Shown in pieces: positions 35,709 through 40,848 of a DNA stretch of 64,000 bases. This stretch comes from Sediminicoccus rosea (GTDB taxonomy: Bacteria > Pseudomonadota > Alphaproteobacteria > Acetobacterales > Acetobacteraceae). Every line of letters starts with the position of its first letter. Position 1 is the stretch's first letter. The stretch covers positions 1,109,501-1,173,500 of the forward strand of contig NZ_CP137852.1 in assembly GCF_033547095.1 (NCBI RefSeq), in the 5' to 3' direction. The translations under genes and the position numbers were made by a program. The notes under the pieces were generated by a model, which did no database searches, was not told the origin of the DNA, and worked only from the letters and a program-made list of their open reading frames with translations.

Positions 35709-36560
35709 TCAGGGCAAGCGGCGCAGCCAGGCGCGCAGCGTGATCAGGGCGGTCAGCCAGCCGATGACGGCGGCGGCCGGTGGCACCAGCGCCAGCAGCG
35801 GCCAGGGCAGGTCGCCGATCTGCGCGTCGCGCGCCAACACCACGGGCAGCGCCTGCATCGCCAGGAACCACAGCGCCGGCAGCGCGATGGCGAGCCCCCC
35901 GAGCGCGCCCAGGAAGCAGAGCCAGCCGAGCCGCCGCGCGAAGCGCCCGGCAATGTCGGCATCCCGGGCGCCCAACTCGTGCAGGATCACGATGGTCTCG
36001 CGCCGCGCCGCGATGCCCGCGCGCGTCGCCACCGCGACCAGCGCGGCGCCGACCAGCCCGATCAGCCCGAGCATGGCGAGGGAGAGGCTGCGCAGCCCGT
36101 CCGCAAGCCGCATGGCCAGCCGCACCGCCTCGCTGCGCAACTCGAGCTGCGCGCCGGGGATCGCCTGCACCGCCTCCAGGAGCGGCTGGTGATCCGCCCC
36201 GGCCGGCAGGGTGATGGCCAGCATGCGGGGCAGCGGCAGGCTCGGCACCTCGCCGAGCCAGGGGGCGAGAAGCTGGCGCAGCCGCTCATCCGGCACGGCC
36301 GTCACCGAGGTGACGCCGGGCAGGGCGGCGAGTCGCGTGATCACCGGCTCGGGCGCCGCATCCCGCGGGAGTTGCAGCAGCAATTGCCCGGCCTCGCCCT
36401 GCTGCCAGCGTTCGGCGAGGCGCCCCGCGCCGTCGGCGCCGGCGATGGCGAGGGCGGCCAGGAGCGCCATGGCCGCCACCAGCGCGGGCAGCAGCCGGTC
36501 CGCCAGGGCACGGCGCAGCCCGAGCGGATCGCGCCCCTTGAGGCGGCGCCCCTCAGCCAT
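35709..36560 (-). CDS. ftsX: Cell-division protein FtsX
   Basis: 283 residues. A first TM helix (LLPALVAAMALLAALAIAG), a periplasmic domain of about 110 residues (SVTAVPDERLRQLLAPWLG), then three TM helices at the C-terminus (SLAMLGLIGLVGAALVAVA, WLCFLGALGGLAIALPALW, PLLALVPPAAAVIGWLTAL). FtsX couples FtsE ATP hydrolysis to peptidoglycan hydrolase activation. It overlaps ftsE by 8 nt. Confidence 0.93.
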   Translation of the reverse strand: MAEGRRLKGRDPLGLRRALADRLLPALVAAMALLAALAIAGADGAGRLAERWQQGEAGQLLLQLPRDAAPEPVITRLAALPGVTSVTAVPDERLRQLLAPWLGEVPSLPLPRMLAITLPAGADHQPLLEAVQAIPGAQLELRSEAVRLAMRLADGLRSLSLAMLGLIGLVGAALVAVATRAGIAARRETIVILHELGARDADIAGRFARRLGWLCFLGALGGLAIALPALWFLAMQALPVVLARDAQIGDLPWPLLALVPPAAAVIGWLTALITLRAWLRRLP

Positions 36561-37218
36561 GGCTCACCAGCCGCCCGGCATCGAGCCGCAGGGTGGGGGC
36601 GGGGTATTCCTCCGGCAATTCCTCGCTGTGGGTGGCGACGATCACCGTGGTGCCCATGCGGTGCATCTCGCGCAGCAGGCTGATGACGCGGCGTGCCTGG
36701 GCGGCGTCGAGATTGCCGGTCGGCTCGTCCGCCACCAGCAGCGCGGGGCGGGCCACCACGGCGCGCGCCAGGGCGAGGCGCTGCTGCTCGCCGCCCGAGA
36801 GGGTGGAGGGCGGCGCCTCGGCGCGGTCGAGCAGGCCGACCCAGCGCAGGATCTCCCGCACATCGGCGGCGAGGCGCGCCTCTGTCAGCCCCTGGATGCG
36901 CAGCGGCAGGGCCGCGTTCTCATAGACCGAGAGATGCGGCAGCAGGCGGTAATCCTGGAACACCACGCCGATGCGCCGCCGCAGCGCGGGGAAGGCGCGG
37001 CGCGGCAGGCGGCGGATGCGCGAGCCGAGCACCTCCACCTCGCCCTCGGTGGCGCGCAGTGAAAGGCTGATGAGGCCAAGCAGGCTCGACTTCCCCGCCC
37101 CGGAGGGGCCGAGGAGCCAAGTGTAGCTGCCCGGCGCCAGCGCGAAGCTGACATCGGACAGGGTCCAGTAGCCGTCGCCCTCCGGGTAGCGCAGCCCGAC
37201 CTGGGAGAATCGCACCAT
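36553..37218 (-). CDS. ftsE: Cell-division ATP-binding protein FtsE
   Basis: 221 residues starting at the ATG 37216-37218 (MVRFSQVGLRYP). Walker A GPSGAGKSS, VVFQDYRLLPHLSVYEN, signature LSGGEQQR, Walker B LLVADEPTGNLD. The VYEN and PTGNLD forms are characteristic of FtsE/LolD-type ATPases, and its place directly before ftsX settles the name. Divergent from the zinc-ribbon gene with an 83-nt shared promoter region. Confidence 0.95.
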   Translation of the reverse strand: MVRFSQVGLRYPEGDGYWTLSDVSFALAPGSYTWLLGPSGAGKSSLLGLISLSLRATEGEVEVLGSRIRRLPRRAFPALRRRIGVVFQDYRLLPHLSVYENAALPLRIQGLTEARLAADVREILRWVGLLDRAEAPPSTLSGGEQQRLALARAVVARPALLVADEPTGNLDAAQARRVISLLREMHRMGTTVIVATHSEELPEEYPAPTLRLDAGRLVSHG

Positions 37219-37301
37219 GCGTGGAGTTTCGCAGCGCCGTTCAGGATAAAGCAAACCGGCGGTTGCAGGATGCCGGCCGCCTTGGCACATGCGACACCGA
37301 C

Positions 37302-37846: not shown

Positions 37847-39829
37847 TCAGGCGGGAACCGCCTCGGGCAGAGTCACGCCGGTGCGATAGCTGCCCTCGCT
37901 CACCGGGGCACAGGGCAGGACCAGCGAGAGCAGGCGGTCATCCTCGCGGATCACGAGATCCTCCGCTTCGAGCCAGGCCAGCGCGGCGGCGATGGCGGGT
38001 GCCGGGTGCGCGCCACCCAGGCCCTCCAGCAACGCGGCCTCGCTCACCGGGCGGTCCGTCACCTCCAGCACCGCCAGGGCGAGGGCGTCGAGCGCATGCT
38101 CCCGCCGGATGCCGCCGCGGCTGTCGAGCACCAGCGCGCCGCCATCCGGGAGCGTTTGCAGGATGTGCAGGCTGGCGAAGAGGTCGTTCTGCGGGATGCC
38201 CCAGGCCTTCACCGTGTCATGGATGCGGCCGTAGCTCTGCTGCAGGTGCAGCGAGTTTTCCCAGCCGCGTTCGAAATAGTAGCAGAAATCCTCGTAGCGA
38301 AAGCCGGTGCGCTCGACATAGTCGCGCGAGAAGATCAGCTCATAGGTCGGCCCATGGGCCGCGGGCGGAATGCCGAAGCGCTCCGGCGTCGCCTGCAGCG
38401 GCGCGTAGCGCGTCACCTGCACCGGCACGCAGGAGACCGGCGGGTCGAAATGCGCGAGCTTGGGCAGCAGCGTCTCCATCCGCCGGTACTCGGGCAGCGT
38501 GTCGTCCGGGAAGCCGTAGAGGATGTTGTAGAGGATCCGGATGCCGTATTTGCGGCCGAGCTTGAGCGTGAAGACGTTCTGGATGGCGGTGACGCCCTTG
38601 TCGATCCGCCGCAGCACCTCGCTGCTGAAGCTCTCGATGCCGGGCTGCACCTCGTGGAAGCCGGCATCGGCGAGCAGGCGGAAATGCTCCTCCGTCACAT
38701 TGGATTTCATCTCGCAGCTCAGGGTGAATTTCGGCTGCTCCGCCGCCAGCATGGGCAGCAGCGTCTTGTAGAAGCCGTGCGGCAGGATGTAGTCCGAGAA
38801 GCGGAAGCTCGACATGCCATGCCGCGCGCGCAATGTGCGCAGCCCTTCCAGCACCGTCTCCGCCGCGCGGTGGCGGTAGACGAGGTCGGGCTTGTCGATG
38901 CCGCAGAAGACGCAGTGATGCTTCGCCCCCCACCAGCAGCCGCGCGAATTCTCGACCGGGATGGAGGCAGGGGTGAGGTCCACCTGGCACTCGGCGGAAA
39001 GTCGCGCCGTGTCGGCGAAGAAGTCGCTGTAGTCCGGCACCGGATTGGCATCGAGATCGGCCTTGGGCGCCGCCGGCGTGGCGATGATGGCGCCATCGGC
39101 CCCGCGATGCAGGATGCCGCGCACCGCATGGAGCGGCCGCGCGCCGCGTGCGGCTTCGGCGAGGTCGAGGATGGTCGTCTCGCCCTCGCCCGTGCAGATG
39201 GCGTCCACCCAGGGATGGCTTTGCATCACCATGCTGCCGGTCGGGTCCCGCACGGCATAGCCGCCGAGCGCCACAAGCTTCTCCGGCGCGCGTTGCTTCA
39301 CCAGCTTCGCGAGCGCCAGCGAGGCGATCGTCTGGTCGAACATGCAGGTGAAGCCGATGAGCCGCGCGGGTGAGGCCGCAAGCTCATCCGCCCAGCGTTC
39401 CAGCCAGCGGGGAATGACCTCGGCCCGCAGGTGCAGCAGGCGTTCGATCACCGCATCGACCGAGCCCACGCGCTCTGGATCCAGCGCGCCGGCGAAGGCC
39501 AGGTCCTCCGCCTTCACGCGCAGGTGCCGGCGCTGCGCGTCGGTCACCACGGGGTCGAGCCCATGGCTGAACAGGAAGTCGTTCAGCGCATAGACGACGC
39601 TGATGCCGTCATAGGTGCTCGCCTTCAGGAATTCGAGCGCGAAGAGGTTGAGGTGCAGCACCCGCGTCTGCACCCCGCGCCTGGCCAGGATCGCCTTGAG
39701 CAGGGCGAGGCCGAGGCCGGGCTCGATCACATTGGTCCAGGGCATGCTGACCAGGAGGATCTCCGGCTCCGGACGATCCTCCCGGGCGTAGGGCCGCACG
39801 GGCGGCCAGGCGGGGGGCACCGCATCCAT
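37847..39829 (-). CDS. RiPP-maturation radical SAM C-methyltransferase-like protein
   Basis: 660 residues. N-terminal segment (about 25-210) resembles a cobalamin-binding Rossmann domain (ILLVSMPWTNVIEPGLGLALLKAIL, ALGGYAVRD). The radical SAM core has SRGCWWGAKHHCVFCG: Cys298, Cys306 and Cys309 in a CX7CX2C spacing, not the classical CX3CX2C, as in the family I know as RiPP maturation radical SAM protein 1 (TIGR03975). Later motifs include SDYILPHGFYKTLLP, PGIESFSSEVLRRIDKG and YNILYGFPDDT. The family places methyl or similar groups on ribosomal peptides. The C-terminal ~130 residues may bind a precursor. It follows the 280-residue gene by 7 nt, so the two are coupled. Confidence 0.85.
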   Translation of the reverse strand: MDAVPPAWPPVRPYAREDRPEPEILLVSMPWTNVIEPGLGLALLKAILARRGVQTRVLHLNLFALEFLKASTYDGISVVYALNDFLFSHGLDPVVTDAQRRHLRVKAEDLAFAGALDPERVGSVDAVIERLLHLRAEVIPRWLERWADELAASPARLIGFTCMFDQTIASLALAKLVKQRAPEKLVALGGYAVRDPTGSMVMQSHPWVDAICTGEGETTILDLAEAARGARPLHAVRGILHRGADGAIIATPAAPKADLDANPVPDYSDFFADTARLSAECQVDLTPASIPVENSRGCWWGAKHHCVFCGIDKPDLVYRHRAAETVLEGLRTLRARHGMSSFRFSDYILPHGFYKTLLPMLAAEQPKFTLSCEMKSNVTEEHFRLLADAGFHEVQPGIESFSSEVLRRIDKGVTAIQNVFTLKLGRKYGIRILYNILYGFPDDTLPEYRRMETLLPKLAHFDPPVSCVPVQVTRYAPLQATPERFGIPPAAHGPTYELIFSRDYVERTGFRYEDFCYYFERGWENSLHLQQSYGRIHDTVKAWGIPQNDLFASLHILQTLPDGGALVLDSRGGIRREHALDALALAVLEVTDRPVSEAALLEGLGGAHPAPAIAAALAWLEAEDLVIREDDRLLSLVLPCAPVSEGSYRTGVTLPEAVPA

Positions 39830-39836
39830 GGCGCGG

Positions 39837-40679
39837 CTAGAACTTCTCGACGCCGGAGCGGTCCCGGATGAGGCTGTCGATCGGGTTCATCTGCCCGACG
39901 AAGAGTGTGCCGACAGCGATGCAGACGCCCGCCCAGATCACCCCCGCCGCGATCGCCGTGCCGCCATCCGAGAGCCGGTCCGCCAGCGAGCCGCGGCCGC
40001 CCACGGCGATGATGCGCTCCAGCGCCGCCTCGCTCACCTTGACCTTCAGCGTATCCGCCACGGCCTTCGGGCGGTCGAACCAGTCGGTGGTGAAGCGGCC
40101 ATCCTTCAGGACGGCGTGGAACATCTTCATCACCTCCTGGTCCACCGGGTCCTGGATGCGGGCCAGGTTGGAGGGGGCGAGGAGCTGCAGCGCCTCGGCA
40201 TTCTTGCCGCTGAGCTTGAGGCCCAGTTCCTTCGCCGCTGCCGCCGGCTTCTCGAACACCTGGGTGAGGTCGCGCCCGCCCGCCTTGGCGGCGCGGATCA
40301 GCTCCAGCACATCGGCCTCGATCACGCCCTGGCGGACGAGGTCCTGCGGTTCCTTGATGGGGCGGGGCGGCCAGGGGAAGGGGATGGGCGGCTTGCCCGT
40401 GCTGCCGCAGGTGAAGCCGCCTTCGCCATCCTGGTAGATGATGGCGCGGTTGGGGTTGAGCGCGCCGAACTGCGCTTCCGCGATCTCTACCGCCAGGTTG
40501 GCGGCGCCGATCGCCATCTTGGAGAGCTTGGACTGCATCGCGCGCTCCGGCGCGGCGGCAAGCGCATGGACCAGACGCCCGGCCGCCTTGATCGAGGAGA
40601 GCAGCTCCGCCTTGAGGGGTGGGATGGGCAGGACCCGCTCCTCGGTGAGGAGCAACGCTCCCTCCTTGCCGTCCTCCAT
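39837..40679 (-). CDS. 280-residue protein with tandem 59-residue repeat and C-terminal TM helix; putative RiPP precursor or partner
   Basis: I do not recognise a named family. Residues about 120-157 and 179-216 align without gaps at an offset of exactly 59 (V124/V183, G135-R136/G194-R195, T139/T198, F142/F201, P145/P204, L152/L211, S157/S216), the pattern of NHLP/Nif11-like leader modules. A Pro-rich stretch (97-107) precedes them, and GGRGS (227-231) and a hydrophobic helix (about 240-262) follow. Cysteines are only 91 and 253. No signal peptide. The ATG at 40677-40679 has only a weak ribosome site (AGGA). It is upstream of the radical SAM gene and co-transcribed with it, so it may be its substrate, a scaffold or an immunity partner. 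Confidence 0.65.
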   Translation of the reverse strand: MEDGKEGALLLTEERVLPIPPLKAELLSSIKAAGRLVHALAAAPERAMQSKLSKMAIGAANLAVEIAEAQFGALNPNRAIIYQDGEGGFTCGSTGKPPIPFPWPPRPIKEPQDLVRQGVIEADVLELIRAAKAGGRDLTQVFEKPAAAAKELGLKLSGKNAEALQLLAPSNLARIQDPVDQEVMKMFHAVLKDGRFTTDWFDRPKAVADTLKVKVSEAALERIIAVGGRGSLADRLSDGGTAIAAGVIWAGVCIAVGTLFVGQMNPIDSLIRDRSGVEKF

Positions 40680-40754: not shown

Positions 40755-40848
40755 GGCGGTTACAACTAAAAATTGTACCGGACGAATCGGCGCCGGGCCG
40801 CCGGTGCCAGGCCATGGCGGCGCCCCGCGCAGGGCGGGGCGCAAGCGA

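Follow-up and report, generated by a model that had tools for sequence, protein, structure and literature searches.

A pair of genes in the alphaproteobacterium Sediminicoccus rosea is, on balance, best read as a self-contained modification unit of the type that yields ribosomally synthesized and post-translationally modified peptides (RiPPs): an outsized putative precursor of 280 amino acids (aa) would be accompanied by a PoyC-type radical S-adenosylmethionine (SAM) enzyme that methylates its hydrophobic tail. The pair lies in a stretch of 64,000 nucleotides (nt) of contig NZ_CP137852.1 (assembly GCF_033547095.1, positions 1,109,501 to 1,173,500 of the forward strand), referred to here as the window. 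Judged from sequence, the 280-aa protein is probably the substrate of its neighbour: the precursor-like gene adjoins a modifying enzyme and the two are kept together in the genomes in which they occur.

The enzyme and the occurrence of the pair

The initial annotation of this locus, made from the sequence alone, had described a two-gene operon consisting of an unfamiliar gene and a radical SAM gene of RiPP type. The two open reading frames (ORFs), of 660 and 280 aa, share a strand and are separated by 7 nt, and the CX7CX2C motif that had been placed at Cys298/306/309 of the enzyme is indeed there. The enzyme scores 481.7 bits against TIGR03975 (cut-off 281.85), covering profile positions 1–606 of 606, and by this comparison it is clearly a member of TIGR03975 (rSAM_ocin_1), the RiPP radical SAM C-methyltransferases. 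Its best sequence match in the PDB is TokK (phmmer, E 5e-7, residues 158–265) and it matches one PHROG of unknown function (E 2.5e-67). The C-terminal domain is predicted to form a winged helix and is possibly a RiPP recognition element (RRE). A Foldseek search with this domain returned first 5why_B, a sactipeptide enzyme that we take to be CteB, at E 0.035 and with the matched part of 5why unspecified; all matches listed, TbiB1 with its leader peptide and TglHI among them, have E values of at least 0.035.

The pair is rare. A homologue of the 280-aa protein is present in two of 21 genomes of the genus (the window genome, G000, and G008) and in two of 249 genomes sampled from the family (G000 and G189). 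A profile of its N-terminal domain picked out one of 385 genomes sampled from the class (G000) and one of 296 sampled from the phylum of an Ignavibacteria metagenome-assembled genome (MAG), namely that MAG itself. A scan of genome_contigs with the peptide patterns FTCGSTGK and PP[IL]PFPWP, which misses relatives lacking these peptides, yielded four loci: Roseococcus sp. SDR (L017, 91% identical to the window protein), the unclassified PowLak16_MAG13 (L030, 45%), a MAG named 'Asaia bogorensis' (L018, 40%) and the Ignavibacteria MAG (L032). The last encodes a 117-aa protein (L032:6163-6516) made up of the N-terminal domain and the TCGSTGKPPIPFP motif only. Four pairs are available, the window included, and the expectation that relatives would retain the arrangement is borne out, since the enzyme gene directly follows the 280-aa gene in all four full-length cases (window, L017, L018 and L030). 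Compared with L017, the 280-aa gene of the window has a ratio of non-synonymous to synonymous substitution rates of 0.134 and the enzyme gene one of 0.155. The pair has a GC content of 0.688, that of the window being 0.710.

TIGR03975 enzymes are considerably more widespread. They exceed the cut-off in 12 of the 249 family-sample genomes, of which two carry the 280-aa protein and nine a small precursor-like ORF; no precursor was recognised in the remaining locus, L027. In a sample of the phylum such enzymes occur in eight of 398 genomes. Among the seven loci other than the window, L082 and L085 hold large candidate precursors and L086 an ORF of 101 aa, and no candidate was recognised in L081, L083, L084 and L087. 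In a tree of 21 enzymes those of the four pairs form one clade (support 100/100), set apart from eight enzymes with small precursors. The pair clade lies nearest to two enzymes linked to CefA or CefA-like proteins, a grouping with support of 93/89 that the program leaves unstarred; its warning of long branches concerns L086, L027 and L085, elsewhere in the tree. Enzyme starts for the alignment and the tree were set by script or by eye, those of L081–L086 at the profile match. Enzymes cut by contig ends (L028 and L019, the latter on G189:C14) were left out of both, and the tree also lacks the G919 enzyme, which falls into two matches (L087). The L019 enzyme (L019:2-1111) is a second TIGR03975 member in G189.

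Architecture of the 280-residue protein

The three full-length homologues measure 286, 286 and 285 aa; relative to L017 the window copy of the gene is 33 nt shorter at its start and begins at a different start codon. The protein had been called repeat-containing, and this is confirmed by hhalign, which aligns its two leader-like units, both within residues 106–226, at P 2.8e-5 (probability 74%, 29% identity over 45 residues), a score attained by none of 200 column-shuffled controls. Unit 1 in addition resembles nine small precursors encoded beside related enzymes (P 2e-4, probability 47%; none of 200 shuffles scores as high). The nine include the small ORF of L028, and eight complete enzymes of that group are in the tree. 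Unit 2 ends in SEAALERIIAVGG (LSDTALERLVAGG in L030). In the AlphaFold model ten-residue pLDDT means range from 68 to 90 over residues 121–220. A C-terminal hydrophobic helix had also been noticed: its best 19-residue Kyte-Doolittle mean is 2.31, and the homologues reach 2.32, 2.62 and 2.73.

Conservation is unevenly spread along the four full-length proteins; the N-domain-only L032 protein was omitted from this regional comparison. The N-terminal 80 residues are 31–38% identical in distant pairs, and residues 81–105 form the best-conserved region, with 80–88% identity in all six pairs. In the five pairs other than window–L017 the two leader regions show 38–58% identity and the hydrophobic segment 22–32%, its hydrophobicity remaining equal.

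The view of the protein as unfamiliar stands in that it reaches no NCBIfam or Pfam cut-off, there being no Pfam match at E up to 1; it is qualified by a best, if weak, match to NF038399, a model of the Os1348/NHLP clan. Among five family members, the window protein included, this model matches four at E up to 1 (best 2.1e-4), the fifth being the N-terminal domain alone of L032. Nothing in PHROGs or PADLOC matches the 280-aa protein at E up to 0.01. From these comparisons, the middle of the protein appears to hold two related, leader-like units and the protein has no family of its own.

PoyC has a CX7CX2C motif and methylates the beta-carbons of Ile and Val, as described in PMC11285071 and PMC5682303, and PMC7470986 names proteusins as one case of RRE fusion at the C-terminus. 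Taken together with the winged helix and its sactipeptide fold match, this motif, this chemistry and these fusions suggest how the pair may work. The precursor would begin with an N-terminal domain, continue with two Os1348/NHLP-like leader units in tandem and end in a hydrophobic C-terminal segment of ∼40–50 residues. The leader units would dock on the C-terminal winged helix of the enzyme, acting as an RRE, and the enzyme would use SAM and methylcobalamin to place methyl groups on sp3 carbons of the 280-aa protein. The most likely targets, to go by family and motif, would be the beta-carbons of Val and Ile in the hydrophobic segment, as with PoyC. Methylation, with or without a later cleavage, would leave a bulkier tail that may be more membrane-active or more firmly anchored in the membrane.

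Genomic setting and competing readings

A zinc-ribbon gene and a DoxX gene (Pfam names) flank the pair in both the window and L017; in L018 and L030 the flanking genes are different. The zinc-ribbon gene was matched in 19 of the 21 genus genomes, and the flanks were compared in eight stretches out of the 17 genus genomes besides G000 and G008. In six of these stretches (L073, L075–L078 and L080) the zinc-ribbon and DoxX genes are neighbours with neither gene of the pair between them; the other two (L074 and L079) yielded only the zinc-ribbon gene. The inserted unit therefore appears to be just two genes between conserved flanks, and thus no peptidase or exporter arrived with it. This agrees with the earlier remark that neither a peptidase nor an export gene is present at the locus. 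The ABC-type genes closest to the pair (35712–37290, minus strand) encode an FtsX-like permease and its ATPase (Pfam), and by eye several same-genus stretches that lack the pair have them too. Of eight genomes searched for a C39-type peptidase domain, four have one (G000, G008, G056 and G265), that of G000 being ∼99 kb from the pair; G189, G256, G038 and G182 gave no match.

The features of the locus are collected in the table below. The inverted repeat upstream of the pair is the only TACAA-N3-10-TTGTA match in the window, a count to which no chance expectation is attached, and no copy turned up in the sequence inspected upstream of L018 and L030. Between 37600 and 41000 there are no sigma-70-like promoters (0.3 expected) and two overlapping terminator-like sites on the plus strand (1.4 expected). 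Other explanations of the locus were discarded. A phage or plasmid home found no backing, as plasmids gave no match to the 280-aa protein and the 25 pattern stretches from viral_contigs contained no relative; neither protein matched a defence system in PADLOC at E up to 0.01; and the window has no tRNA and no Rfam family at gathering score.

Table. Features of the gene pair, its protein products and its upstream region (window coordinates)
Feature	Position	Strand	Basis
RiPP maturation radical SAM C-methyltransferase, 660 aa	37847..39829	-	TIGR03975 match
C-terminal winged helix of enzyme, possibly RRE, residues 542-640	37910..38206	-	AlphaFold2, predicted local distance difference test (pLDDT) 89.2
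CX7CX2C iron-sulphur cluster motif, C298/C306/C309	38903..38938	-	invariant in 13/13 aligned enzymes
Putative cobalamin-binding domain of enzyme, residues 144-223	39161..39400	-	Pfam PF02310, 28.9 bits (cut-off 32.1); TokK match over residues 158-265
Putative precursor protein, 280 aa	39837..40679	-	ORF; homologues adjoin enzyme in three other genomes
C-terminal tail, residues 264-280, IRDRSGxxKF-like	39840..39890	-	29-53% identity, five pairs other than window-L017
GG and hydrophobic segment, residues 239-263, proposed modified core	39891..39965	-	GG in 4/4 full-length proteins
Leader-like unit 2, residues 180-224, then AVGG	40008..40142	-	hhalign to unit 1
Leader-like unit 1, residues 121-165	40185..40319	-	NF038399 match at residues 140-181, E 0.0026
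Conserved motif GGFTCGSTGKPPxPFPWPP, residues 87-105	40365..40421	-
N-terminal domain, residues 1-80, shortened at start in window copy	40440..40679	-
Inverted repeat TACAACTAAAAATTGTA (TACAA-N7-TTGTA), possible operator	40761..40777		upstream of pair; also upstream in L017

Several observations weigh against an outsized precursor methylated on its tail. Conservation peaks in the internal TCGSTGKPP motif rather than in the proposed core, and the C-terminal part does not evolve fast: residues 227–280 show two non-synonymous differences over 119 sites between the window and L017, counts too small for ranking regions of the protein. The window protein scores 17.8 bits against NF038399, below the cut-off of 40, and an unrelated model, NF033682 (LapA retention module), matches it almost equally (16.4 bits, E 0.0079) and two of the five family members in all. 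For unit 2, hhalign detects no similarity to the small precursors (84 of 200 shuffles score as high), both hhalign probabilities quoted above are modest, and column shuffling leaves a shared helical make-up uncontrolled. Overall the 280-aa protein is poorly modelled by AlphaFold (pLDDT 59.9), and its model has no fold match at E ≤ 0.001. The winged helix of the enzyme likewise has none at that threshold, many other winged helices score alike, and Pfam gives no PqqD match for the enzyme. Finally, no peptidase is linked to the pair, and G189 is among the genomes with no C39 match.

The prominence of the internal motif raises the question of whether modification falls there. On such a reading the 280-aa protein would still be the substrate, altered at GGFTCGSTGKPPxPFPWPP, and the hydrophobic tail would be only a membrane anchor. 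The motif region keeps its 80–88% identity although the whole proteins of L018, L030 and L017 are 40%, 45% and 91% identical to that of the window, and in L032 it stands near the C-terminal end of the protein, the usual place of a core. The figure is inflated, however, by the finding of L030 and L032 through FTCGSTGK, so that these two are not independent proof of motif conservation; L017 and L018, the homologues in G008 and G189, were recovered without it by whole-protein search and keep the motif. In addition, the L032 genome has no TIGR03975 enzyme over the cut-off (best 90.4 bits; the MAG may be incomplete), and the leader-like units come after the motif, whereas leaders normally stand before the core. 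Modification at the motif is in our estimation distinctly unlikely. Far less credible still is a chance association in which the enzyme serves another, unlinked substrate: just four pairs were found, two of them within one genus, but adjacency holds in all four genomes, the flanks in L018 and L030 are different, and both genes sit at a single insertion point. We consider it very improbable.

A further possibility concerns the product rather than the site. The pair may yield a full-size protein that stays anchored in the membrane and has its own function tuned by C-methylation, a reading that overlaps the favoured one in enzyme, substrate and site, so that the likelihoods assigned here do not sum to one. 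The comparison is with Mmp10, which C-methylates a whole protein, methyl-coenzyme M reductase (PMC8828468). The insertion of two genes without peptidase or exporter and the lack of a C39 match in G189 agree with an uncleaved product, and the N-terminal domain and the motif suggest a role beyond recognition. The leader-like units and the enzyme family point instead towards RiPP logic. Moreover, RiPP proteases can have their genes elsewhere in the genome, and a C39-type domain is found away from the pair in G000, G008 and G265. A full-size product seems somewhat unlikely to us. A bolder proposal, according to which a RiPP-type radical C-methyltransferase acts on a full-size, multi-domain, membrane-anchored protein with internal tandem leader units as docking sites, is offered tentatively and is doubtful; if true, modification of full-size proteins via tandem leaders would link RiPP biosynthesis to the ordinary modification of proteins.

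The preferred reading, an outsized precursor with a tail-methylating partner, would add a new candidate family of precursors to an enzyme family already recognised; with only two genes the unit is minimal and should be easily reconstituted. The pair would allow a direct test of whether a long hydrophobic segment is methylated without partner enzymes, and of the purpose of two tandem leader units. It is absent from the titles and opening lines of abstracts of open-licence literature on Os1348, TIGR03975 and Roseococcus RiPPs, and may be described elsewhere; in PMC8776678, from the Roseococcus and RiPP literature, the terms 'radical SAM' and 'proteusin' do not occur.

Relation to known systems

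The substrate arrangement had been thought to look new, a claim that has to be softened: both large CefA-type and small Os1348-type precursors already occur with TIGR03975 enzymes. Os1348 of Pseudomonas sp. Os17 (PDB 6LK7), an 85-aa protein, is the namesake of the leader model NF038399. Profile positions 145–181 of the 280-aa family align to 6lk7_A, only at E 0.21. The structure is the dataset of PMC7726476, which reports no structural similarity of Os1348 to nitrile hydratases and in whose main text the word 'radical' is absent.

The small Os1348-type precursors of other Acetobacteraceae (L005, L020–L026 and L028) share with the window pair a TIGR03975 enzyme alongside and a leader of NF038399 type, the model matching eight of the nine at E up to 1 (best 1.7e-9). 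Unlike the window protein they are 82–106 aa long and have one unit, and eight of nine have a short ending of AE/AG type (GMAEM, GMAEC, NMAEC, LAGDM or GAGEM); L024 ends in an Ala/Glu-rich repeat. Upstream of the small precursor and enzyme of L021 lies a zinc-ribbon/nucleotide cyclase/AAA/TPR gene (L021:3415-6729; TIGR03903 272.1 bits, cut-off 705.75), and by eye similar genes are found at L022:9438-12797, L024:3525-6908 and L028:4196-7522. Downstream of the enzyme there is a CRP-like regulator, tested in L021 and seen by eye in L020.

Large precursors are represented by the CefA 'Cys-every-fifth' peptides. In a Methylomagnum locus (L088) one gene run contains both a TIGR03975 enzyme and a 679-aa protein that carries the annotation CefA, and in L082 a 344-aa CefA-like protein (15.7 bits, below the cut-off of 30) is likewise part of such a run. 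The resemblance to the window pair lies in precursor size and enzyme family; the differences are a Cys-containing core and an extra gene between precursor and enzyme, a radical SAM/SPASM maturase by annotation in L088 and a radical SAM gene by eye in L082. The L082 protein (L082:2805-3839) carries a LSDDQLEAVAGG stretch, by eye like the end of unit 2, and a Cys/Lys-containing tail, and has weak matches to two RiPP/bacteriocin models; its gene adjoins the radical-SAM-like gene, after which comes the TIGR03975 enzyme. In L085 a 262-aa protein (L085:5406-6194) with a Val/Cys-rich hydrophobic stretch, possibly a large precursor, lies ahead of a TIGR03975 enzyme, with another gene in between. It has no NCBIfam or Pfam match and, taken by eye as a parallel case, was set aside after a profile comparison that was not significant (P 0.11). 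A conjugative plasmid of Rhizobium leguminosarum (L089:3104-6938) carries a Nif11-like precursor gene together with genes for a radical SAM epimerase and a TIGR03975 enzyme; LuxR-type and acyl-homoserine-lactone synthase genes are nearby.

A close parallel may be PoyC/PoyB of the polytheonamide pathway, among the proteusins, a likeness drawn from the motif and the published description rather than from sequence comparison with PoyC. Common to both are a radical SAM enzyme with CX7CX2C, probably of B12 type in the case of the window, a Val/Ile-rich target, proposed in the case of the window enzyme, and a leader similarity to the NHLP clan that is weak in the window protein. In contrast to that system, the window unit consists of two genes only, and its putative 280-aa precursor has an extra N-terminal domain and two leader-like units.

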